Shown here: one piece after another, positions 22,640 to 33,900 of the stretch | Position numbering within the stretch: the stretch's first letter is position 1 | Layout: each line of letters begins with the position of its first letter | Source of the DNA: Nitrospirota bacterium | Lineage (GTDB): Bacteria > Nitrospirota > Thermodesulfovibrionia > UBA6902 | Reading direction: 5' to 3' | NCBI GenBank assembly: GCA_016222905.1 | Contig: JACRPZ010000060.1 | Location: 1 to 33,900 of the forward strand | Length of the DNA: 33,900 bases | Notes under the pieces: model-generated | Seen by the model: only the letters and a program-made list of their open reading frames with translations | What the model was told of the DNA's origin: nothing | The model's database searches: none | Made by a program: the position numbers and the translations under genes

Positions 22640-23113
22640 CTACTTTTTTATATCTTCAATTATCCCGTCAATCTTCTTCATGTCAATCTCGCCGACTATA
22701 TCCTCATTGATTGTTGCAACCGGAGCAAGGCCGCAGCAGCCGATACAGCCAACTGTTTCAAGAGTCATGGAGAGGTCAGGCGTTGTTTCGCCTTCCTGTA
22801 TGGTGAATTCATCCTTTATCTTGTCCAGCACCTTGCTCGCGCCTCTGACGTGGCATGCTGTGCCTGTGCAGACCCTGACTATTTTTTTGCCTCGTGGCGT
22901 GAAGTAGAACTGCTTATAAAAAGTTGCGGTGCTCAAAACGTCTGATAAAGGTATGTCAAGATTCTTCGACAGCTTATGCAGTTCTTCTTCAGGGATATAA
23001 TTGTGTTCCTCCTGGATCTGCTGAAAGGCGTGTATCAATACGCCTCTCTTTTTCTGGGTTTCGGTAAGAACTTCACCTACAGCTCCGAAGACTTCATTAA
23101 CCTTGAGACTCAT
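22640..23113 (-). CDS. nuoE: NuoE-like [2Fe-2S] subunit
   Basis: 157 residues of the NuoE/HydC thioredoxin-like family. A helical N-terminal region is followed by Cys82-Cys87 (VCTGTAC) and Cys123-Cys127 (CIGCCGLAP), the four ligands of the [2Fe-2S] cluster that accepts electrons from the flavin of NuoF. The ATG lies inside the last codons of acsA (17-base overlap) behind GGAGGG, so the two proteins are probably made from one mRNA with coupled translation. The next gene, nuoF, starts 17 bases later. This fixes the Nuo-like module as part of the CO dehydrogenase operon. Confidence 0.92.
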   Translation of the reverse strand: MSLKVNEVFGAVGEVLTETQKKRGVLIHAFQQIQEEHNYIPEEELHKLSKNLDIPLSDVLSTATFYKQFYFTPRGKKIVRVCTGTACHVRGASKVLDKIKDEFTIQEGETTPDLSMTLETVGCIGCCGLAPVATINEDIVGEIDMKKIDGIIEDIKK

Positions 23114-25097
23114 TTATCCCTCCAACACCGGCATGCGCCGTATTCTTGATCTCTCTTCTGGCAGCCATATCCATAAGGACCCTTTCAGCGCCGAATTTGC
23201 CGGGCTCGTATTTTCTGAGTTTCAGGTTCTCTCTCGCCTTGTCAATATAGTCCAGACACATCTGAAGCATCTTCTCAGGATCAGGTTCAAAGTGAAGCGC
23301 TCCCATAAAGCGCTCAAACCATACTTCTGTCATTATTTTTGTAACTTCCTTGCTTGCGCCTACAGGAGACTCTCCGCCGAATATTACAGGCACTCCTGAT
23401 GCGGCGAAATAGCAGCCGATAGCTATAGCTTTCTCAGACATCCATTCAGGTGCGATGCCAACTGCCGGCATGCCGGCGATCTCGTCAGAAAGCCCGCCTT
23501 CCGCAGCCATTGCAGTGGCTATAGTCAAGATTCTTGAGTTGTCAACGCAAGCGCCAAGATGCAGAATAGGCGGTATGCCTATCGCCTCGCAGACCTCCCT
23601 GAGTCCGGGTCCCGCATTCTCCAGTGCCATTTCCGGTGTCATATAACCTGCAGTTGCGCATGCGGCCGAACCGCAGCCTGTTGAAACTATCAGCACATCG
23701 TTCTTTATTAATTCCGTTGCGAGATACTTATGGATTCCGGTAGACGCAACCCTTGGATTGTCGCATCCGGCAAGCCCGACGACACCACGGATCCTGCCGG
23801 CCATGATAGCGTCATTTAATGGCCTGAATGAAGCGCGCCATTTGCCGCCCTGCATGTAAGCGATATACTCCTCTGAAAACCCGCCGATTAGCGTTGATTT
23901 AAGGGTAATATGGCTTCCCTCTGCCTTTCTGTTGGGGAAATTGTCACATGCTGTTTTAATTATCTCTCTTGCAACTTCCTTTGCCCTGTGCTCATCGTAT
24001 TCTATATGGACAGCTCCCTGCATCTTTGCCTTTTCGCTGGTGGTGATCACCTTTGTATGAAACTTCTTTGAAAGTTCTCCAATAGCAGGCATTATGCACT
24101 GGACATCAACTGTCATGGCGTCTATCAGGCCTGTCATGATCCCGAGTTCCTGATTTGTAAAGCCTCCCGCCGTGGGTATGCCGTGTCTCATGAGTATCTC
24201 ATTTGCGGTGCAGCACATTCCGCCGAGGTTAATGCCTTTAGCGCCTTTTGATTTTGCGTACTCGATCATTTCAGGCTCATTAACAGTGTCAACTATCACC
24301 TCCGCAAGAGTTGGCTCATGGCCGTGGACGATCAGGTTAACTTCGTCCTCTTTAAATATGCCGAAACTCGCCTCTGCCTTTATCGGAGATGGTGTCCCGA
24401 AGAGTATATCTGATATGTCTGTTGAGATCATGCAGCCGCCCCAGCCGTCTGCAAGGGCGACTCTAAGACCATGCGTAAGCAGATGGTCCGGCTCATGGTC
24501 AACGCCGATATTTGTGCGGTGCATAGCCTCAACAACTTCCCTGTCAATTCCGCGGGGCACTATATTCCATTTCCTCCACCTCTCCTGCGTCTTCTGAGGT
24601 GCGCGCTTGGTATAATTGATCTCGCCTTTCTGGCGTCCGAAATCTTCGACGAAGGTAGTGGCAACGTCTCTTGCAACGTCGTTCACCGGCCTTCCTTCAA
24701 ACTCAATGCCTAAAATACCTGCAACTCTGTAAAGCTTCTTCACATCGGTTATCTTGAAGTCTTTGGCCTCTCCATTGGCAACTGCGAGCAACGTCAGAGC
24801 CATATCGCGGGCATGGTCTGAATGTGCGGCCGTGCCGGCGGCGATCATTCTAACCATATTTCTTGCCGCTACGGTCCCCAAAGTTGCACCGCATACGCCT
24901 CTTGCCTCTTCTTCGGCATTCTTGCCGGTGAACCTGCATGGCCCCATATGACATACCTTGCAGCAGGCCCCTGATTCGCCTATAGGACATGGTTTCATCT
25001 TGAGTGCCCTGTCAAAACATGTCTCTATATCATGTTGCTTGCCCCATTCAATTATCTCTTCAGCTGATGTGCTGGCGCTTTTTATTGTCTTATCCAT
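23097..25097 (-). CDS. acsA: Carbon monoxide dehydrogenase catalytic subunit
   Basis: 666 residues, the size of bacterial AcsA/CooS. The D- and B-cluster cysteines are in place: Cys37, the CC pair 45-46, Cys49, Cys54 and Cys69. C-cluster segments follow: GINLGGMCCTANE, GLAGCDNPRV, VSTGCGSAACATAGY and HLGACVDNSR. The enzyme interconverts CO2 and CO at a Ni-Fe-S site and, next to AcsB, should feed CO to acetyl-CoA synthesis. GGGAGG precedes the ATG. The gene lies 78 bases downstream of acsB and overlaps nuoE, which suggests electron supply from the NuoEF module, directly or through ferredoxin. Confidence 0.97.
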   Translation of the reverse strand: MDKTIKSASTSAEEIIEWGKQHDIETCFDRALKMKPCPIGESGACCKVCHMGPCRFTGKNAEEEARGVCGATLGTVAARNMVRMIAAGTAAHSDHARDMALTLLAVANGEAKDFKITDVKKLYRVAGILGIEFEGRPVNDVARDVATTFVEDFGRQKGEINYTKRAPQKTQERWRKWNIVPRGIDREVVEAMHRTNIGVDHEPDHLLTHGLRVALADGWGGCMISTDISDILFGTPSPIKAEASFGIFKEDEVNLIVHGHEPTLAEVIVDTVNEPEMIEYAKSKGAKGINLGGMCCTANEILMRHGIPTAGGFTNQELGIMTGLIDAMTVDVQCIMPAIGELSKKFHTKVITTSEKAKMQGAVHIEYDEHRAKEVAREIIKTACDNFPNRKAEGSHITLKSTLIGGFSEEYIAYMQGGKWRASFRPLNDAIMAGRIRGVVGLAGCDNPRVASTGIHKYLATELIKNDVLIVSTGCGSAACATAGYMTPEMALENAGPGLREVCEAIGIPPILHLGACVDNSRILTIATAMAAEGGLSDEIAGMPAVGIAPEWMSEKAIAIGCYFAASGVPVIFGGESPVGASKEVTKIMTEVWFERFMGALHFEPDPEKMLQMCLDYIDKARENLKLRKYEPGKFGAERVLMDMAARREIKNTAHAGVGGINESQG

Positions 25098-25175
25098 AAA
25101 ACCTCCCTTTGAAAGGGTTGAAGATTGGGATTTCGCTTTTAATAATCCCTGACTCCTAACCCCGGATCACTATAT

Positions 25176-27389
25176 TTAAAACATCGGCTCCATTTCAAGC
25201 GCCGGATGTCCTGCGTTTGTTAAGAACTCCAGAAGCTTCTCGGAATCTTCCGCTGCTGTTTCATCAGCTATCTTATCAATCAGGTCAGGCACACCTTCTT
25301 CCACGCACCTTTTCTTAAAGTCTTCGCCTAACCTCTCTTTCAGGTTCTTTGTCATCCAGACGATTCTCTTAATGCCGCCGTCGGCAAAGAGGAATTTTTT
25401 GCTGGTGATAAAGTTAACGCCGATGCCTGAGAATCCGGGGTTCTGTGTGCCTCCACCGACAGTTCCGGCTAAAGTGGAGAATTTCATCCCTACAGGTGTT
25501 TCGCCTGTATGACCTCTCTGCACCAGCATCACACCGTTGGCTTCAGGTACTATTGCTACAATGCACTCAAAGCATCCGCAAGATGTCATTGGATTATCCA
25601 TTATGGTGTAAAGGTTCAATGTCTCCACAGCGCCTGCGGAGTTGCTCTTAAGGTACTTGTCAACTCCTTCCCACCTGCCGCGTTTATCATCAACCGCAGG
25701 ACCCTTTGCGATAGGCTGATTGCCGCCGGTCGGGTCAATCTCGAATGCGGCTTTGCAATCGAGCCAGTTATACGCGCCGCAGAGGCCGAGACGCTCCGGA
25801 CTTATTACGCAGACATGAGACGGAGCAAATGACTGGCACAGGAGGCATGAATAGAAGGTGTCAACGGTCTCGTCCGTCATTCCTCCGAGCCTCTTGTCAC
25901 GCTCTCTGTAGACAGCCCTTGCCTGCTCCTGAAGCTCAAGCACATCTTTTTCATCGCAGTAAAGGGTTGTCTGCACCTTGTCAACTATTGACTTGAACCT
26001 GTGGTGTGTCATAGTGTTGTGTATAATGCCTATATGTTCAAGGGTAATGCCGTCCTTGTATGATTGGTTGCTGATCCTCATCCATACGATGTCGCGCTGT
26101 CCCATATGCCAGAGTCCCTGCGCTTCGTTTATATTGTGATGCATTTTCCTCTCGATAATAGCCTCAAAGTCATTCTGCATCTTTCTGCCTGCAACATCTA
26201 TTACAATTGCGAGAGGCATCTTGCCGCCTGCCTTGAACCTCTCCTCGACATTTGTGCCGACAATGATCACCTTATTGTCCTCTATCTCATCAAGCTCTTT
26301 TGTCCTTACCCATTCAAAAGCAGGGGTGCGCTGCCCGCCGAACTCGATGAACATATCCTCTTTTCTAATCCTCTCGCCCTCAAAAGCAGGGCCGTAAGCT
26401 ACAGGGATCGGCGGTTTCTCTACGGTAACCTTTAATCCCCTTATCTCAAACGCCCTCTGGACAATCTTTTTGTGGTCGAACTCTTTTTCAACATGCTCAT
26501 AAGTGCATACGCCGGTGGGGTGGATAACAGGGACATCAGTATCGCATATTGCGGGGTAGCCCATGTTGATTGCGCCTGCGCCTGTGGACCATTTTATCTC
26601 ATCAAGCTCTCCCAAAACGAGCGCAAATGCGAAGACCCTGTCCTTTGTATATTTAAGGTGAGCCTTGTAATCGCCGGGCTTGTTTCCGCCGAATATCATT
26701 GACGCCCTGATGGACCAGCTTAACGCATAAAGCGTATGTTCAGTATCAGGACCCAATGGAACGATATAAGTGTCCCAGCCGAGTTCAACTTTCCGTGAAA
26801 GAAGCTGCTGCGTCACATTTGTAAGCTTGCCATTTTTATCCTTTGCCTGTCCTGAGAGAAATGTCAGGATATTCTTCTCCTGAAGTTCCCTGACAATTTT
26901 TTCAGCGATCTCAGCGTCAGGCGCTGCTCCTATGATCGCTGCAAATCCTGGCATTCTGCCGTCAACAAGCTGGATCCCGAGATTTCTCTGAATAGTGTCG
27001 GTGATAAAACCGTTATAGACATAACCTGTTTCCGGATCGGTTACAGGCTCAAGACCGTTGAGATACCTAAGCGCGAGGATTATCTCTTCGCAGAAGAGGG
27101 TTGCCATTCCGGAATCAAGCGCTTCTCCCAGATACGGTTTCCAGAGTTTCTCTTCGGGCATATCATGCAGCATCTCTCTTGCCATTTCGAGCGCGACCTT
27201 CATGTCAGCGAGGGTCTTCACCGGGAATGCGGTCATCGCGTATATCTGCGGCAGGTAGAACGCGGTATCCGGAAATTCAATAACAAAATCCTTGCCCTTT
27301 TCAGCAATAGCCTTCTCAAGCATTTCTTCTGCTGTCTTAAACAGATGATGTGAAGCACTGATAGCAGCAGAGGCTATAATCTTTGACAT
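25176..27389 (-). CDS. acsB: Acetyl-CoA synthase / CO-methylating subunit
   Basis: 737 residues, the full bacterial length with the N-terminal domain that contacts CO dehydrogenase. The A-cluster ligands are visible: CLLCQSFAPSHVC followed by a fourth cysteine in ERLGLC (spacing C-x2-C-x8-C-x9-C, about residues 512-536) and the CGC motif near 605 that binds the proximal and distal nickel. It condenses CO, a methyl group from the corrinoid protein and CoA into acetyl-CoA. GGAGG lies six bases before the ATG. The PerR-like gene lies immediately upstream on the same strand, so acsB may be expressed together with that regulator or from the short spacer between them. Confidence 0.97.
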   Translation of the reverse strand: MSKIIASAAISASHHLFKTAEEMLEKAIAEKGKDFVIEFPDTAFYLPQIYAMTAFPVKTLADMKVALEMAREMLHDMPEEKLWKPYLGEALDSGMATLFCEEIILALRYLNGLEPVTDPETGYVYNGFITDTIQRNLGIQLVDGRMPGFAAIIGAAPDAEIAEKIVRELQEKNILTFLSGQAKDKNGKLTNVTQQLLSRKVELGWDTYIVPLGPDTEHTLYALSWSIRASMIFGGNKPGDYKAHLKYTKDRVFAFALVLGELDEIKWSTGAGAINMGYPAICDTDVPVIHPTGVCTYEHVEKEFDHKKIVQRAFEIRGLKVTVEKPPIPVAYGPAFEGERIRKEDMFIEFGGQRTPAFEWVRTKELDEIEDNKVIIVGTNVEERFKAGGKMPLAIVIDVAGRKMQNDFEAIIERKMHHNINEAQGLWHMGQRDIVWMRISNQSYKDGITLEHIGIIHNTMTHHRFKSIVDKVQTTLYCDEKDVLELQEQARAVYRERDKRLGGMTDETVDTFYSCLLCQSFAPSHVCVISPERLGLCGAYNWLDCKAAFEIDPTGGNQPIAKGPAVDDKRGRWEGVDKYLKSNSAGAVETLNLYTIMDNPMTSCGCFECIVAIVPEANGVMLVQRGHTGETPVGMKFSTLAGTVGGGTQNPGFSGIGVNFITSKKFLFADGGIKRIVWMTKNLKERLGEDFKKRCVEEGVPDLIDKIADETAAEDSEKLLEFLTNAGHPALEMEPMF

Positions 27390-27430
27390 CTTTACCTCCT
27401 GAATTCATTTTTCAAACTATAAACTGTTTT

Positions 27431-27461
27431 TATTCTGAAATATTCTGTTAAGGCGAGAATA
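27431..27461. promoter_or_regulatory. Cluster of AGAATA/TATTCT half-sites upstream of acsB
   Basis: TATTCTG occurs at 27431-27437 and again at 27441-27447, and AGAATA follows at 27456-27461 in inverse orientation. A related AGAATAATTC lies in the promoter of the adjacent PerR-like gene. The shared hexamer could be a binding site for that regulator, but it does not match a full classical Fur or PerR box, so this is a weak proposal. Confidence 0.3.
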
Positions 27462-27479
27462 CTTTTACGTCACTCAATG

Positions 27480-27884
27480 CTACTTACTGCATTTTGAACA
27501 TATCCCATAAAATTCAATATGATTGCCTTTTATATCGAACCCGTTAGCCATACTGTCCGAGAGGTCAAGCTTGAATTTTTTGAATATATCAATAATGTCC
27601 TTGCACTCTGTACATATAAGATGATGATGCGACGTAATGTCAGGGTCATACCTTTTTTTGCCCGGCTCAATCGTTAGCTCCTGCAAAGCGCCCTTGTTCT
27701 TAAGCGCTTCAAGTGTGTTATACACCGTTGCAACAGACATGGTCGGAAATTTTTTCGAGACAGCGCTGTAGATGGTATCGGCAGAAGGGTGCGACTTGTT
27801 GCCTTCCATATAATTCAGTATTGCAAGCCTCTGCGGCGTTAATTTTATACCGATATTTCTGTATTTTTCCATATGAGTTATCAT
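27480..27884 (-). CDS. Fur family regulator, PerR-like
   Basis: 134 residues. A winged helix (about 15-70) with SVATVYNTLEAL as the recognition helix is followed by the dimer domain. The structural zinc site is complete: Cys91-Cys94 (CTEC) and Cys129-Cys132 (CSKC). The regulatory metal set resembles PerR: Asp80 in RYD, the HHH run at 86-88, and Asp99 in IIDI where Fur proteins usually have Glu. It may therefore sense peroxide or Fe/Mn status. It sits in the same orientation between acsC and acsB, with its own strong promoter. Control of the oxygen-sensitive carbon-fixation genes is a reasonable inference. A second in-frame ATG is at 27872. Confidence 0.85.
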   Translation of the reverse strand: MITHMEKYRNIGIKLTPQRLAILNYMEGNKSHPSADTIYSAVSKKFPTMSVATVYNTLEALKNKGALQELTIEPGKKRYDPDITSHHHLICTECKDIIDIFKKFKLDLSDSMANGFDIKGNHIEFYGICSKCSK

Positions 27885-27902
27885 AAGCGCACCAAGTGAG
27901 AA

Positions 27903-27932
27903 ATAATATCAGTTTGGAATTATTCTTGTCAA
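27903..27932 (-). promoter_or_regulatory. Sigma-70 promoter of the PerR-like gene
   Basis: On the - strand TTGACA (27932-27927) and TATTAT (27908-27903) are separated by 18 bases. The -35 is perfect and the -10 has one mismatch. Transcription should start near 27896, giving a leader of about a dozen bases. The spacer contains the palindrome GAATAATTC, which could be an autoregulatory site. Confidence 0.65.
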
Positions 27933-27949
27933 TTGCTGCGCAAAAGATT

Positions 27950-27971
27950 GTCATACCCGCAAAGGAATGAC
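27950..27971. repeat. Short GTCATNCCC...GGAATGAC palindrome remnant
   Basis: GTCATACCC and GGAATGAC flank four bases. It resembles a shortened copy of the GTCATTCC-type palindromic repeat seen at 31409-31478 and probably is a degenerate dispersed element. It lies in the spacer between acsC and the PerR-like promoter. Confidence 0.4.
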
Positions 27972-28008
27972 GACCAAATGTATAAAATAGTTTTTCAGTA
28001 GTCTATTT

Positions 28009-29352
28009 TCAAGCAACTTTGTTCTTGAGGAACGTAGGAATACTATTGGCCTCTCTGGGGCCGACAGTGATCTTCCAGCCTTCCAATTTATCCTCAAGAG
28101 CGCCGCTCAATATAGCAACCTGTCCGGGTATGATCAGTTCTTTATGGCTGATCTGCTTATCAATGCCGCTTTCCTGTATGAAGGCCGCGATTTTTGACGC
28201 GATAAATTTACCCGCTGCCCATGCGGTAAGCACAGATAGTCCTTCGCAGTCCATCACCGCAAGCCGGCTCGGGACCTTGCTGTTCTCTATTTCGCCTGAG
28301 ACTATAAAATATGTGAGCGAGAAGTTGGTCGTTATCATTAACGGGGAATCAGCCTTTGCTTCCCCTATGTTATAGACCTTCTGCTCTACCTGCATCGGCA
28401 CCTGAGGGTCGGTATAGATGTTCTGCCTTAATGTGTAGAGCGCGAGATTTTTCCACTGCTCTATGCTGCTGAGAATAACAATGGAAGCATACTTTGCAAT
28501 CGCAACAGATGCAATATTCGCTTCAAGTAGAGAGTCGTCTCTCTGAACATTATTTATTACAGGGTAGCCGAGAGGCTTAAAGCCTTTTTTGAGCGCTGAA
28601 CGTCTTATCTGGGTGTTATTTTCCAGTATATCTTTTGCTGTCTTTACGCCGGAATCAAGTACTATGTCTTCAACTCCCAGACCGGCAATTTTTTCCGAAA
28701 GGGCGCTTAACGCATCGAGTCCTTCCGCGCAAATTGCAAGGGGCACGCCGTATGTTTTGGCGATATTCGCCATTGCATCAGCATTCTTATCAGTGGCGCA
28801 ATAGATCAAGGGCTTTCTGTCTGCGACCGCTTTTACCGCAGCCTCAATTACAGAGGCGTCTTTGCAGTTAAGTATAATGGCCGCTTCAGGCGCCTTCCCT
28901 GCGACAAGTTTAACAGCGGCTTCATATTTTGCGCTGTCATTTGACACGCACTCTATCGAGACGGCGTCAATCCTGAGCTTCTGTCCGACCCTGTCCATTT
29001 CAGAGTTCGCAACTTCGGACGCCTTTTTTGCAAGATCATCAGCGCTCAGGTCATCCTTTATATTCAATGCAAGGGCGCAGGGATTAAAGAACTTCTTTTC
29101 ATGCCTGAAGAGAACGGTTTCCCCGCCCATCTTAACAGCCTTTTCTCCTGTACCAAGGCTGAATGTCCTTATTGCCGGTGCTGATGCATCTCCCAAGGAT
29201 TTCTTTGCTTCCTCGGAAATATCAGGGCACTTCGATATATCAACGCCGCTCTGGGCAAGCTTCATTGCAAACGCAAGGCATGTTGGAAACCCGCACTTTT
29301 TGCAGTTTGTCTTGGGAAGAAGTTTAAATATCTGGATACCTGTCAAAGCCAT
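28009..29352 (-). CDS. acsC: Corrinoid iron-sulfur protein, large subunit
   Basis: 447 residues. The N-terminal [4Fe-4S] motif is exact (Cys17, Cys20, Cys25, Cys42 in CKKCGFPTC and SKCP). A TIM-barrel part follows, and the C-terminal third is the cobalamin-binding domain. With AcsD it carries the methyl group on cob(III)amide from AcsE to AcsB; the Fe-S cluster supports reductive reactivation. GGAGG lies eight bases before the ATG, and the gene starts 39 bases after acsD. The reading frame is intact and of family length. Confidence 0.96.
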   Translation of the reverse strand: MALTGIQIFKLLPKTNCKKCGFPTCLAFAMKLAQSGVDISKCPDISEEAKKSLGDASAPAIRTFSLGTGEKAVKMGGETVLFRHEKKFFNPCALALNIKDDLSADDLAKKASEVANSEMDRVGQKLRIDAVSIECVSNDSAKYEAAVKLVAGKAPEAAIILNCKDASVIEAAVKAVADRKPLIYCATDKNADAMANIAKTYGVPLAICAEGLDALSALSEKIAGLGVEDIVLDSGVKTAKDILENNTQIRRSALKKGFKPLGYPVINNVQRDDSLLEANIASVAIAKYASIVILSSIEQWKNLALYTLRQNIYTDPQVPMQVEQKVYNIGEAKADSPLMITTNFSLTYFIVSGEIENSKVPSRLAVMDCEGLSVLTAWAAGKFIASKIAAFIQESGIDKQISHKELIIPGQVAILSGALEDKLEGWKITVGPREANSIPTFLKNKVA

Positions 29353-29391
29353 TTATTTACCTCCAAAATAATTATTATTCAAGCCGTTTAA

Positions 29392-30333
29392 TTAGCTGAG
29401 TTCACCGATCACTTTTTCAATTGTCTCAACAGCCTTCGGATGCCTCATTATCAGCAGGTTAGTTCCCGCCATAAGCATTGATGTAGATGTCACCGTCTCC
29501 CATGCAATGCCTCTCTCCTCAAGTCTTCCCCATCCCGGCACATCCGTCTCTGAAGCAGACGTCTCTTTTGTCTTCCATACATTTATGCCCACGTCGCCGA
29601 CTATCGGAGGCTGCATGGTTGCGTCATTCTGCATCAGTCCGGCAAGCCTGATCCTCTCCATAACCGAGTATGTGTACTCCAGTCCGTAACCGAGTGCGGA
29701 GCACATAGGATCTGTGATAAGCCTTGACTTGTCAAACCCCATCTGTGTTATCAGGATGTTCAACTGCTTTGCAAGGTTAATATCAAGCTCGGACATCGCT
29801 ATTAATTTATGATTATGAGCCAAAGCAGCCGCTACAATTGTCTTGTAATTTCCCTCTTGAGCTTTGCCTATGACGCAGTTGTATCCGCTTGCAGCCTCTG
29901 CTGCCGCGACAATTACGGATGCATCTTTTTCAATATGATTTGAACCGAGAATTATAAGAGGCACATTGATTGCCGCCAATACATCTTTCACTGTCTTTGC
30001 CGCATCTGCGGCAGAACGATCGCCTCTGTCAGGGTGCGTGCTTACCAGCCTTAATGCTATGGCCTTTGCGTTAAGTTTGTCCTGACAGTGCCTTGCCCAT
30101 GTGACAGGGTCATTGCTGACATCTTTATATGGCTCTTTAACAGACTCAGGCCAGTCATCCGGCGCTATATCCTGTATCTCATACGCGATAACAGGCTTGT
30201 TCGGAATAGTTCCTTCAAATGAGAGAAAGGGCAGGGAGCTTTCACCGCCTATTGCTACCGCCTTATCGCCTTTGCCAAAGTCAAGGCCGAGCACTTTGCC
30301 GTTATAAGTCTCTTTTGGAGCTACAAATGACAT
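29392..30333 (-). CDS. acsD: Corrinoid iron-sulfur protein, small subunit
   Basis: 313 residues of the CdhD/AcsD family, a TIM-barrel partner of AcsC. The N terminus (APKETYNGKVLGLDFGKGDKA, quoted in part) and the central LGSNHIEKDASVIVAAAEAA and LITDPMCSALGYGLEYTYSVMERIR segments are characteristic. No Fe-S motif is expected or seen. The start is behind AGGAGG. Genes order acsE-acsD-acsC with 26 and 39 bases between them, so they form one transcription unit. Confidence 0.95.
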   Translation of the reverse strand: MSFVAPKETYNGKVLGLDFGKGDKAVAIGGESSLPFLSFEGTIPNKPVIAYEIQDIAPDDWPESVKEPYKDVSNDPVTWARHCQDKLNAKAIALRLVSTHPDRGDRSAADAAKTVKDVLAAINVPLIILGSNHIEKDASVIVAAAEAASGYNCVIGKAQEGNYKTIVAAALAHNHKLIAMSELDINLAKQLNILITQMGFDKSRLITDPMCSALGYGLEYTYSVMERIRLAGLMQNDATMQPPIVGDVGINVWKTKETSASETDVPGWGRLEERGIAWETVTSTSMLMAGTNLLIMRHPKAVETIEKVIGELS

Positions 30334-30359
30334 ATAATTCCTCCTAAACGCTTGTTTTT

Positions 30360-31148
30360 TTACATCTCTAAATACGAGTGAGCGTAGAGTGTTTTTCCCA
30401 TAAACACTTCTGTTGTCTTGACTACGTCCATAAGCTCTTTATCAAGAGGGTTGGCTATTGCCGCAGTAAGCCCTTCATACATCAGGAGCGTTAAATAAAC
30501 CCTGTCAATCAGGCTTCTCATATCTTTTGGGACGCCGTTTGAGATGTTGCTTAAACCTACCACTGTCTTCATCGGCGGGTCATTTAATTCCTGGAACATC
30601 TTTACAGCTTTAATTGCATGCTGCGCCTGGTCCTGCATGGTGCAGACCTGAAGGATCAGGGGATCAAGATAGAGGTCCTCCATGGGCACGCCATATTCCG
30701 CTGCCCTTCCCATGATCTCAGCGGCAATACCGCATCTCTCCTCAGCGTCAGCAGGCAGACTGCCTTTGCCTAATGTAAGCGCTATGCAGAGGGCGTTATA
30801 TTTTGCGGCTAATTCAAGCATGATAAACCTGTCAGGCTCGTTCGAAGTGGAATTGATCAGCGGCCTGCCCCATGCATTATTGTGCGCTTTCAGTCCGGCC
30901 TCCAGCGCCGCGGCGTTGGTGGTATCGAGGCAGAGCGGCGCCTGGACTGTCTTCTGTATGCTCTCCACCATCCATGTCATCAGCTCTCCGCCTTTCTCTT
31001 CAGCAGGTCCTATATTGACATCAATAAAATGCGCTCCGGCTTTCCACTGCGCTTCTGCAAGCTCCTGAATAGGCTTGGGATCACGGCTGTTCATCGCTTC
31101 CCTCACCTTTTTGGCTATAATGCTTATCTTTTCACCTATAATTATCAT
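30360..31148 (-). CDS. acsE: Methyltetrahydrofolate:corrinoid iron-sulfur protein methyltransferase
   Basis: 262 residues, the exact size of the Moorella enzyme. The pterin-binding barrel shows IDVNIGP near 42, Asp75 in LCLDTTN, NSTSNEPD near 99, a LYLDPLILQ strand near 160 and VVGLSNISNG near 196-205; these carry the folate-binding aspartates and asparagines. It transfers the methyl group of methyltetrahydrofolate to Co(I) on AcsCD. Two purine-rich stretches (AAAGGAG and AAAAGGA) precede the ATG. It is the first gene after the 31149-31510 spacer, so the acs promoter probably lies there. Confidence 0.96.
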   Translation of the reverse strand: MIIIGEKISIIAKKVREAMNSRDPKPIQELAEAQWKAGAHFIDVNIGPAEEKGGELMTWMVESIQKTVQAPLCLDTTNAAALEAGLKAHNNAWGRPLINSTSNEPDRFIMLELAAKYNALCIALTLGKGSLPADAEERCGIAAEIMGRAAEYGVPMEDLYLDPLILQVCTMQDQAQHAIKAVKMFQELNDPPMKTVVGLSNISNGVPKDMRSLIDRVYLTLLMYEGLTAAIANPLDKELMDVVKTTEVFMGKTLYAHSYLEM

Positions 31149-31302
31149 TCCTTTTGTCTCCTTTAGGAACTATTTTTAGCTGGTAGAGGATTTAAACAAG
31201 AGATGCGTCTTAAAAAGCTTTTCACTTTAACATAGAAAAAGGCGTTTTATTAAGGAGTTAATTTAAAAATAAGAATTTTAAATAAAAGCTTAAATGGAAA
31301 TG

Positions 31303-31402
31303 TTGACCCAAAAATACCCCTCTCCCTCACCCTCTCCCCCAAGGGGCGAGGAAACTACTTCAATTCCCCTCCCTTGAGGGGAGGGGACAAAGGGGAGGGT
31401 GG
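31303..31402. repeat. 100-bp GC-rich dispersed repeat, copy 2
   Basis: In the opposite orientation to 17914-18013, with which it agrees at about 88 of 100 positions. Two hairpin units can form: CCTCTCCCC with GGGGCGAGG (31331-31351) and CCCCT with AGGGG just after. The pair brackets the block from acsE to the NuoG-like gene. Confidence 0.85.
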
Positions 31403-31408
31403 GCTCAT

Positions 31409-31478
31409 GTCATTCCCGCAAGCGAAGCGCGTCGGGATTCCTTTTTCTACAGATAGATTATGGGCAAGCCGGAATGAC
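31409..31478. repeat. GTCATTCC...GGAATGAC palindromic repeat
   Basis: GTCATTCC (31409-31416) and GGAATGAC (31471-31478) are perfect inverted arms around a GC-rich centre. This is a familiar kind of dispersed intergenic palindrome in bacteria. It lies directly beside the 100-bp repeat, so two different repeat families have accumulated in this spacer. Confidence 0.6.
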
Positions 31479-31510
31479 AAACTGTCTGGTACTTATGTCG
31501 CCGTGTATAG

Positions 31511-32284
31511 TTAAGGAATGTTAAGTTTGTCTAAAATTCCGAAAATTCCCTTTACAGCTTTTGAATCAGCAGGCAGATCAAAGACCGGCTTTCCAGTGAG
31601 ATCAAGCCGGGCGATATTTTCGTCCTGTGGTACATTGAAGACATTCTTAACAGGAAAGTCTATCTCTTTTATCATATTCTCAACATCAGTTAAATCAGTC
31701 TCCGTTACCCTGTTCACTATCAGAATACGTTTAGCAATCTCAAGCTTAAGGTCGTCAATCAGGCTGTTTATCCGCTTTGCGGTCTGAATGCCTTTCTTCG
31801 TGGGATCGCTGATAATAAAGAGGAGGTCAACTTTATGTGTGGTTCTCCTGCTCATATGTTCCATGCCTGCCTCATTGTCCAGCACAACATAATTATAATC
31901 ATCAGACAGTTTATCGGTGTATTTTCTGATTATGTTGTTGGCAGCGCAATAACATCCGGGGCCTTCAGGTCTTCCCATCACAAGAAGATCAAAACCCTTT
32001 GATTCGATTATGGACTGCTGGACCTGATAATCAAAGAGCTGTTCAGAGCTCATTCCGCCGGGACGACTGGCGCCTGAACGGATTGTTTCAAGAGACTCTT
32101 CGCGCAGGTCTCCTATTGTCGCGTGCACATGCACTCCGAGCGCTTCATTAAGGCATGCATTGCTGTCAGCGTCAACCGCAAGGACAGGCTTTCCTCTTTT
32201 TTCTACGAGGTATCTTATTGTGAGGCCTGCGATCGTTGTCTTGCCTGTCCCGCCTTTACCTGCAAATGCTATTACGTATGACAT
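31511..32284 (-). CDS. cooC: CO dehydrogenase maturation ATPase
   Basis: 257 residues of the deviant-Walker P-loop (MinD/CooC) family. The nucleotide site is GKGGTGKTT (residues 9-17), with VDADSNACLNEALG next. Cys111-x-Cys113 (GPGCYCAANN) is the dimer-interface metal-binding motif of CooC, which loads nickel into the C-cluster, or in related proteins into AcsB. No ribosome binding site is evident before the ATG. It reads in the same direction as the acs genes but is separated from them by 362 bases of repeats, so it is probably transcribed separately. Confidence 0.93.
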   Translation of the reverse strand: MSYVIAFAGKGGTGKTTIAGLTIRYLVEKRGKPVLAVDADSNACLNEALGVHVHATIGDLREESLETIRSGASRPGGMSSEQLFDYQVQQSIIESKGFDLLVMGRPEGPGCYCAANNIIRKYTDKLSDDYNYVVLDNEAGMEHMSRRTTHKVDLLFIISDPTKKGIQTAKRINSLIDDLKLEIAKRILIVNRVTETDLTDVENMIKEIDFPVKNVFNVPQDENIARLDLTGKPVFDLPADSKAVKGIFGILDKLNIP

Positions 32285-32335
32285 GAGATTAGGATATATT
32301 TTTGAGGATTGTTAAAGCAAGAGAGAGAAGACAAA

Positions 32336-32344
32336 TGGTATAAT
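32336..32344 (+). promoter_or_regulatory. Second extended -10 promoter placed for a leaderless mRNA
   Basis: TGGTATAAT is a perfect TGn-TATAAT element and ends five bases before the ATG at 32350, so the transcript should begin at about the start codon. No Shine-Dalgarno is present. The arrangement is the same as at 15437-15452. Confidence 0.55.
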
Positions 32345-32349
32345 ATTAC

Positions 32350-32556
32350 ATGTCCAAAAAGTCATTGCTTGAAACCAACCCTTTCCTGAAAGACCCGGAT
32401 ATACGTATACAAATCATTGAGACTGTGACGGTATCTTCCTCGTCTGTTGAGGGTGTCCATGTAGCTGCCGAGCAAGCCATGAAAAATGTCGCTAAGACTA
32501 AAACGGCCGTAAGCGCTGCGCCTGCGTGCGTCTCGTCCGGGAAAGCACGGCCCTGA
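32350..32556 (+). CDS. Small protein with a Fic-inhibitor motif (candidate antitoxin)
   Basis: 68 residues, predicted mostly helical: SLLETNPFLKDP at the start and a segment SSSVEG at 30-35 that fits the (S/T)xxxE(G/N) inhibitory helix known from Fic antitoxins such as VbhA. In those systems the glutamate blocks ATP binding in the Fic active site. The neighbouring Fic protein lacks such a motif of its own, which supports pairing. Unusually, the gene faces the fic gene and overlaps its 3' end by 59 bases, whereas class I antitoxins are normally encoded upstream in the same direction. It could also be a chance or unrelated small ORF, but the promoter at 32336 favours a real gene. Confidence 0.5.
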   Translation: MSKKSLLETNPFLKDPDIRIQIIETVTVSSSSVEGVHVAAEQAMKNVAKTKTAVSAAPACVSSGKARP

Positions 32557-33163
32557 AAACCTTTTTCATAGGCTCGTAATCACGATCTAATCCAGACTGA
32601 ACAGCAGCAAAGTATTCTTTTCTCTTCTTCCCGCGAAGCCCCATAAAATCAAGACCGGGCAGCCCTGCCTGAAATGCCATCAACACGGAAAATAATCTTC
32701 CTACCCGACCATTTCCTTCCCGAAAAGGATGGATTAGCATAAGTTCTGTATGGACAACAGCCAGTGCTGTAATGATTTCCTCGTCAGTAGAGAACGTGCA
32801 AGGCGTATATTTCTTGAGAGGCCCCTTTTCAAATTCTTGCATCAACTTTGGGATATAACGTGCCATAGCAAAATCAAAATCGTCTTTTGAGACATTCACT
32901 TGACGATACTGTCCTGCCCAAGTATATATTTCACCGAGCCATAACCGGTGAATTTCGCAAACATCCTCAGTGGTAAAGCAATGCTCTTTCGTGAACATGC
33001 CCATGAGTTTTGGTTGCACAAGGGCGTAACGTTCAGCCTCGATAACGTCCATCTCACGTTTGCGCTTTATCTGAAGAAGGTTTTTTAGCACCAAGCCACG
33101 AGACCTAGGCTCGAACTGGTCTTCAATTAAATGCGCTGTTTTATATCGGTCTGATTTTCTCAT
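32498..33163 (-). CDS. Fic domain protein (putative AMP transferase)
   Basis: 221 residues. The complete catalytic motif HPFREGNGRVGR is at 145-156: the histidine is the base, the acidic residue binds metal and the GNGR loop binds phosphate. The flap region lies near KDDFDFAMA (93-101). The N-terminal SRGLVLKNLLQIKRKREMD belongs to the cell-filamentation-type Fic family. Such enzymes attach AMP, or sometimes another nucleotide part, to target proteins. No (S/T)xxxE(G/N) auto-inhibitory motif was found at either end, so a separate inhibitor is expected. The start has no clear ribosome binding site. Confidence 0.88.
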   Translation of the reverse strand: MRKSDRYKTAHLIEDQFEPRSRGLVLKNLLQIKRKREMDVIEAERYALVQPKLMGMFTKEHCFTTEDVCEIHRLWLGEIYTWAGQYRQVNVSKDDFDFAMARYIPKLMQEFEKGPLKKYTPCTFSTDEEIITALAVVHTELMLIHPFREGNGRVGRLFSVLMAFQAGLPGLDFMGLRGKKRKEYFAAVQSGLDRDYEPMKKVFRAVLSRTRRTQAQRLRPF

Positions 33164-33235
33164 AAGTAGCCCATACCATCGTCACGAAGGGCGTAGTTTC
33201 AGAGTCATTGGACACGCGTGTGCCGGGCTCATACT

Positions 33236-33682
33236 TTACTTCCTACGCAATGCATAAAATTTTTCTGTCTCTTTAGTTCCCTTTTCATATACTTTAATTT
33301 GTTGCATGTTGTCAGTAATAATCATTAGCCCTTCTTTTGACGGGCCAATGAAAGGTAAGGCTGTTAGCAAAGAAGACCTCATTCTCTTTCCTTCATCTTC
33401 AATATACAGCTTAAATTCAATTCCATGACCAGTTATGACACCTTCATAACGAACATTTACTTTTACAATCTTTTCTTCTGAATTTATTGGATGTCCCGCA
33501 TACGGAACGCCTATGCCAATATGTGAGGTCTCCTTCTTCTGATAACTTCCTTTTGCAATAAAACTCTTCCCGTCAATTTCAATAGTAAGATCACATTGAG
33601 GTCCAGACCATATTCCCATATAACTTTTAGAGGGTTGTTTTATGCACGCTGTGCCATAATCAATATAGAACTTACGTCTCAT
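33236..33682 (-). CDS. Hypothetical protein, possibly missing its N terminus
   Basis: 148 residues from the ATG, rich in beta-strand pattern (DLTIEIDGKSFIAKG and KVNVRYEGVITGHGIEFKLYI), with no recognised family. The same frame stays open upstream for another 27 codons to the border of the terminal repeat and a few codons into it, where TGA stops it. Those codons read as a polar, probably coiled-coil stretch (ITSIQETRDNENQKQKK), typical of the linker after an N-terminal membrane helix. The real gene may thus have been cut by the repeat. Composition is more AT-rich than the acs genes. The function is unknown. Confidence 0.5.
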   Translation of the reverse strand: MRRKFYIDYGTACIKQPSKSYMGIWSGPQCDLTIEIDGKSFIAKGSYQKKETSHIGIGVPYAGHPINSEEKIVKVNVRYEGVITGHGIEFKLYIEDEGKRMRSSLLTALPFIGPSKEGLMIITDNMQQIKVYEKGTKETEKFYALRRK

Positions 33683-33763
33683 TTCATTATCTTCTAATAT
33701 CTTCTTTTGTTTTTGATTTTCATTGTCTCTGGTTTCTTGAATGCTTGTAATAGCAGATCCAAC

Positions 33764-33899
33764 TTGAGACTCCTGAAAAAGTCATTTAGAGATTTTCAGT
33801 TTTTCCATGCCGGATTTTTTAAAATCCGTCTTCTGTTTTTATAAGTCTATCGTTATTTCCTGTTTTTACTTAAACTTTCTTGCCTTGTTACGATTTTTT
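33764..33899. repeat. Right copy of the 136-bp inverted repeat
   Basis: Exact reverse complement of bases 1-136. Its inner border, TTGAGACTCC, starts at 33764, directly after an open reading frame that it seems to interrupt. Only one base (33900) lies outside the repeat, so the contig probably ends within a longer element. Confidence 0.9.
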
Positions 33900-33900
33900 G

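Follow-up and report, generated by a model that had tools for sequence, protein, structure and literature searches.

A conserved convergent gene pair that very probably encodes a class I-type Fic toxin-antitoxin module with an inverted antitoxin gene

A fic gene and a small gene that face each other tail to tail in Nitrospirota very probably constitute a class I-type Fic toxin-antitoxin (FicTA) module, with the inhibitory helix acting in trans and the antitoxin gene inverted. The basis of this reading is the gene orientation, conservation, purifying selection, the motif, the Fic fold, the survival of the antitoxin and the spacing of its promoter box, all observed in this work. In the window, the whole stretch of 33,900 nucleotides analysed here, the antitoxin-like small gene (32350 to 32556, + strand; ATG start, 68 aa, stop included) converges on the fic gene (32498 to 33163, - strand; ATG start, 221 aa), and the two coding regions share 59 bases on opposite strands (32498 to 32556). 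Convergence and the 59 shared bases had been claimed in the original prediction, and the ORF coordinates agree with both. The pair is flanked by a gene for a MinD/ParA-like ATPase (31511-32284) on one side and by an ORF that matches no Pfam model (33236-33682) on the other, and therefore no defence context is seen at the window locus. No RNA family was found in 31400-33900. The nearest named carriers of the module were Nitrospirota MAGs. The ATPase (CooC-like) is also the last gene of a CO dehydrogenase/acetyl-CoA synthase-type cluster on the - strand (23097-32284), in which all names except that of the ATPase were taken from reading the ORFs.

The window Fic matched the Pfam Fic family with an E value of 6.5e-20 and the PADLOC model PDLC04839 (PDC-S04, the S of which we take to denote a one-gene candidate) with 3.1e-70 and 234 bits, over residues 6-208 and profile positions 3-203 of 205. 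The predicted full active site was indeed present as HPFREGNGRVGR (residues 145-156; 32696 to 32731, - strand), the FIC active-site motif with both arginines. The pattern HPFREGNGRxxR occurred in 27/27 aligned rows, and R156, the second motif arginine, was invariant. The Fic chain itself had been said to lack an inhibitory motif; the window chain contains none, and only one of the 27 rows showed a match. The model of the window Fic had a pLDDT of 86.5, and its top solved folds were EcFicT (5jff; Z 20.8, 3.1 Å, 188 residues aligned) and VbhT (3zcb; Z 20.6, 3.4 Å, 184 residues aligned), both class I toxins solved with their antitoxins. Chains of these two proteins took ranks 1-4 (Z 20.6-20.8), and the next row was within 1 and so tied with them. 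The modelled toxin fold was closest to class I FicT, and the nearest PDB sequences were 8wt0 (Fic-1) and VbhT.

The small protein contains SSSVEG (residues 30-35; 32437 to 32454, + strand), which fits the inhibitory-helix motif S-x-x-x-E-G and the general pattern [S/T]xxxE[G/N], as predicted. Such a motif by itself is common, as 3 of the 87 window ORFs of 50-100 aa have one. However, a chance motif was ruled out by conservation and selection, because the small gene converges on 41/41 full-length Fics and its dN/dS is 0.12. This value was obtained over the non-overlapping codons 1-49, and that over codons 1-36 was 0.08, in ten close relatives whose pairs are not independent; the codon comparison indicates that the small ORF is under purifying selection. 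Among 27 small proteins whose Fic partners were aligned too, M1, K3, K4, L6, T9, N10, P11, L13 and E34 were invariant, and S5 and S30 were nearly so (S30 in at least 90%). The residue following the motif glutamate was G in 47 of 58 modules, drawn from the window and 56 named loci, and T, S, N, C or V in 11. Furthermore, the divergence of Fic and that of the small protein were correlated (mirror-tree r of 0.75, with 0.19 the largest of 2000 permutations), a correlation to which shared ancestry contributes.

The structural model of the small protein was weak (mean pLDDT 65.6), with a predicted helix at residues 16-34 ending at E34. In class I antitoxins the motif is placed at the C-terminal end of the first helix, according to the part of PMC8401265 available, and the equivalent Ser and Glu of Fic-1/AntF, with a spacing of four residues, touch the second motif arginine (PMC13327609, in part). 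No match to the small ORF was found in Pfam, NCBIfam, PADLOC or PHROG, and no solved antitoxin gave a significant sequence match. One match to a solved structure (E 0.55) was judged to be chance, and hhalign of the small protein against a YhfG relative gave a probability of 0.8%. A plasmid search with the window's exact small protein returned no match. No small protein was confirmed in viral_contigs, where the search used a short N-terminal pattern and is not a strong negative.

The same geometry was sought in other genomes by separate profile searches for the Fic and the small protein in the same 395 Nitrospirota genomes. These contained 67 Fic places, 41 full-length (profile start of 6 or less and end of at least 205) and 26 partial; one of the 41, in G188, has an internal stop. 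The small gene lay tail to tail with all 41 full-length Fics and was codirectional with none. It also accompanied 20 of the 26 partial ones; of the other six, three were cut off by a contig end, two belong to a single frameshifted Fic and the last is a distant Fic (E 2.8e-27). PDLC04839 was further run against 369 genomes from the class that contains a betaproteobacterial MAG (G418) and against 195 genomes from that of Trichlorobacter (G417). Both centres had been picked because the module was present; like the window, they were known beforehand, and all three are included in the convergence counts. In the class of G418 a convergent small gene was found at 15/15 strong Fic places (E <1e-60) and at none of five weaker Fics; four of these followed the usual class I arrangement, with a motif ORF upstream on the same strand, and one had no such ORF either. 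In the class of G417 all 27 Fic places were convergent and none codirectional, with 26 full-length, including one with an internal stop (G968:C274), and one partial. Conservation of the small ORF beside fic, on which the original prediction depended, therefore extends over Nitrospirota and two further classes. The small protein was present in 19 of 61 relatives, and its 56 named-contig loci belong to Nitrospirota, Desulfuromonadales/Geobacter, Planctomycetota, Nitrospinae, one Betaproteobacterium and others. No intact Fic of the window subfamily without the antitoxin was seen in the Nitrospirota sample, in which counter-examples were checked.

Class I Fic systems are defined by an inhibitory helix on a separate protein (PMC5033356, available part), and this definition fits the pair. 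The same text places the genes of type II systems in one operon, whereas here all full-length cases (41, 15 and 26 in the three samples) had the two genes on opposite strands; we therefore call the module a class I variant. In the accessible portions of PMC5033356 and PMC13327609, class I antitoxin genes lie upstream of the toxin, in an operon with it or overlapping it, in line with the codirectional, antitoxin-first order that the original prediction gave for known pairs. In contrast to this directly upstream position, the gene described here is downstream and inverted, with its own box beside the ATG. In the literature searched, type II papers included and within the coverage that licences allowed, neither a convergent Fic antitoxin nor an experiment on any member of this group was found. 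Convergent Fic pairs apparently represent a conserved, undescribed branch of Fic toxin-antitoxin pairs in several phyla.

In a Fic tree of 71 rows, which has an unknown root and some long branches, the 62 convergent rows formed one side of one branch (99/96, and in all 200 bootstrap trees). The tree took 31 of the 43 convergent loci from the two-class search, with 12 omitted as near copies, a duplicate or partial (L166). Since a single ancestral inversion suffices for the clade, the convergent order could be an inherited accident with no regulatory meaning, the pair working as an ordinary FicTA; we give this explanation a little less than an even chance. The drift in overlap length is consistent with it. 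However, the orientation was held over several phyla despite toxin decay, the leaderless box was conserved together with the orientation, and P2-like prophages have a second, distant convergent Fic pair.

The fate of the two genes bears on the preferred reading, that of a class I-type module with an inverted antitoxin gene. In the 58 modules, fic was intact in 29, broken in 22, absent in five and cut by a contig end in two, with one unrelated Fic (L041, overlap -182) among those counted, and with both L060, in which only the N-terminus is missing, and L063, which is split by one frameshift, scored as broken. The antitoxin ORF (at least 50 aa, with the motif) was kept in 26 of the 27 modules with a broken or absent fic, and was truncated in L041. 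In several broken fic genes (e.g. L028, L029 and L069) the middle, with the active site, is gone and the 3' portion overlapping the antitoxin gene is still present; single broken cases may be MAG assembly errors. Internal deletions that removed the active site and left both gene ends were seen in L028, L029, L053, L069 and L071; in L028 and L053 the two fic pieces are in one open frame, like non-autonomous derivatives. Two tandem antitoxin copies in the same orientation were observed on one short contig in L030 (3605 bases) and L063; they are separated by about 2 kb, and behind each copy lies a Fic or what remains of one.

A TATAAT -10-like box lies 5 nt before the antitoxin ATG of the window (32339 to 32344, + strand) and is preceded by TGG, as in an extended -10 promoter. 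Boxes with at most one mismatch were found within 16 bases of the ATG in 56 of the 57 modules that have 16 bases of upstream sequence, compared to 7% of random 16-mers from the same loci, and the gap to the ATG was 5-6 nt in 51 of these 56. In a second set, the box stood at 6-7 nt in 29 of 35 modules (27 from the class of G417 and eight from that of G418). In two cases of a 52-aa type of the small protein, described below, it was further upstream (L081 and L128). A Shine-Dalgarno-like sequence preceded only 3 of 56 antitoxin genes, and a comparable box was found upstream of fic in only 3 of 29. Transcription from sigma-70 promoters starts about 7 nt past the -10 box, and a box 5-7 nt before the ATG would therefore place the mRNA start at or near the ATG. 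Judged from this spacing, the antitoxin mRNA is probably leaderless and made from its own extended -10 promoter.

The orientation was constant among intact modules, and the coding overlap ranged from -13 to 68 bases, with values of 14-68 in the window and the 56 named loci and down to -13 in the two-class set. The overlap in the window is 12 bases above the commonest value, 47, because the window fic stop is four codons later. The reading register was almost constant: the overlap equalled 2 modulo 3 in 29/29 intact modules of the 58-module set, and two intact loci outside the named set (L015, overlap 4; L017, overlap 13) depart from this register. Over 15 codons in ten close relatives, synonymous differences were lower inside the overlap than outside, at 0.30 versus 0.52 for the small gene and 0.36 versus 0.735 for fic. 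As the length varies, the overlap is at least as plausibly a by-product of compact packing as a control element.

A gene on the fic strand was found upstream of fic in 27 of 29 intact modules (within 120 bases in 21) and beyond the antitoxin in 22 of 26. RNA-level control of the toxin/antitoxin ratio is possible in this arrangement. In a stronger form, which we regard as rather unlikely, the antitoxin would be dual: its leaderless antisense transcript would also restrain fic by pairing or transcriptional interference, and read-through of the fic operon would shut the antitoxin promoter. The constant orientation in all full-length cases and the same-strand runs around fic are in keeping with this idea, and no terminator-like site was found in the window on the + strand at 32556-33163 or on the - strand at 32498-32284. 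A precedent exists in the type I system yonT/SR6, in which the antisense RNA overlaps the toxin mRNA at its 3' end (PMC5848175, available portion). The likeness lies in convergent transcripts at the toxin 3' end, which here would follow from the gene positions; however, the antitoxin of yonT/SR6 is an RNA, whereas the small gene described here codes for a protein and is under purifying selection. The variable coding overlap also argues against the dual antitoxin, and the selection on its codons at the protein level means that an RNA is not the sole product.

The fic gene usually belongs to a series of genes on one strand, frequently together with type I restriction genes, and the antitoxin gene lies antisense inside this series. 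Among 55 flanking ORFs, counted with no random-neighbour control set, HSDR_N was matched six times, HsdM_N four times and HEPN three times; in a non-random selection of 20 of these 55 ORFs, reverse transcriptase, TIR, HerA, GmrSD, HsdS and KAP domains were matched once each. This context and the PADLOC match suggest a defence role, a suggestion weakened by a negative knockout: E. coli NILS69 from which a PDC-S04 locus had been deleted showed no phage phenotype, in a report whose accessible part leaves the PDC-S04 model unstated (PMC12409345). One could speculate, with less confidence still than for the dual antitoxin, that the toxin sits in defence operons (often type I restriction) with a leaderless opposite-strand antitoxin that doubles as active-site inhibitor and antisense or interfering transcript. 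Rising operon transcription would then silence the antitoxin promoter and free the toxin, a transcription-wired abortive-infection guard. That the small ORF is instead an annotation artefact, or a conserved gene unrelated to Fic, is very improbable, for although it lacks a family or solved-structure match and its motif alone recurs among the window ORFs, its strict pairing with fic, purifying selection, invariant motif glutamate, coupled divergence and survival after toxin decay all argue against this.

Some further features of the surroundings were observed. In three loci (L030:144-407, L056:1401-2954 and L073:1475-2956), hsdM begins 44-46 bases away from the start codon of the antitoxin gene and on the opposite strand. 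Several fic genes were preceded by DNA like the first hsdM codons (upstream of fic in L025, L049, L061 and L066), giving the appearance of a module flanked by a partial hsdM 5' end on one side and a complete one on the other. Geobacter-type modules (L042, L043, L054, L055 and L059) adjoin tRNA-like sequences, which were read by eye.

In the class I-type module that we favour, the helix of the small protein ending in S30-x-x-x-E34 would be placed against the Fic active site, where E34 would pair with R156 and block AMP transfer, or possibly turn it to de-AMPylation, as for AntF. The antitoxin would be produced from its own extended -10 promoter on a leaderless mRNA, and fic would mostly be transcribed behind same-strand upstream genes, so that each gene would be crossed in antisense by transcription of the other. 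Binding of the two proteins and toxicity of the Fic would be expected of such a module, and by analogy the target may be gyrase or topoisomerase IV. As in VbhT/VbhA, EcFicT/EcFicA (Fic/YhfG) and Fic-1/AntF, the Fic has no inhibitory helix of its own and the small partner carries S-x-x-x-E[G/N], here at a predicted helix end. Apart from the motif, however, no sequence kinship of the small protein with known class I antitoxins could be detected, and no PADLOC model matched the window's small partner. The nearest described case is AS1/Sofic of E. coli H397, which resembles the pair in having a small antitoxin gene downstream of the Fic gene. Sofic, however, belongs to the class II type and has an N-terminal helix of its own, and AS1 has 47 aa; the strand of AS1 is not given in the available part of the source (PMC12249575).

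Inhibition of the class I kind is itself already known, and the pair is broad and easily tested. Most descriptions of protein toxin-antitoxin pairs present them as operons, and surveys of genomes seek neighbours on the same strand. A clade with an opposite-strand antitoxin would be missed by such surveys and logged as a lone Fic with a 'hypothetical protein', or as a candidate defence gene, and if a Fic candidate were tested without its antitoxin, its toxicity would be misread. The inverted layout also allows a gene-order test by flipping one gene.

The 'hypothetical protein' labelling was indeed seen in E. coli and plasmid records. Citrobacter plasmids carry a 52-aa convergent gene after the Fic gene with a 4-base overlap, and a Marinomonas plasmid has a convergent small gene with a 14-base gap to the Fic gene, both under this annotation. 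DNA similar to the 52-aa-type locus was found in 29 of 5426 complete E. coli genomes, 24 of which reached at least 80% query cover. In the one satellite-like E. coli element inspected, an integrase gene directly precedes fic, and its Fic matched PDLC04839 with 3.8e-90. By hhalign, the 52-aa gamma-proteobacterial type was aligned with the Nitrospirota small proteins at a probability of 80.6% (E 1.3e-5, 21 columns); as the Fics of this type are placed within the convergent clade, the kinship was accepted as likely. The P2-type pair, in contrast, consists of a Fic of 346 aa and a convergent 65-aa small protein with SFSLEG (phrog_9918), with a 4-base overlap (L087 and L089). Its small protein gave an hhalign probability of 8.7% and was not accepted as family kin, and the pair is seemingly a second, distant and independent convergent Fic pair. 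It was found in a P2-like Salmonella phage and in 12 of the 5426 E. coli genomes, and at the E. coli locus inspected it lies between the portal and replication-endonuclease genes, a site that is presumably the old/tin region.
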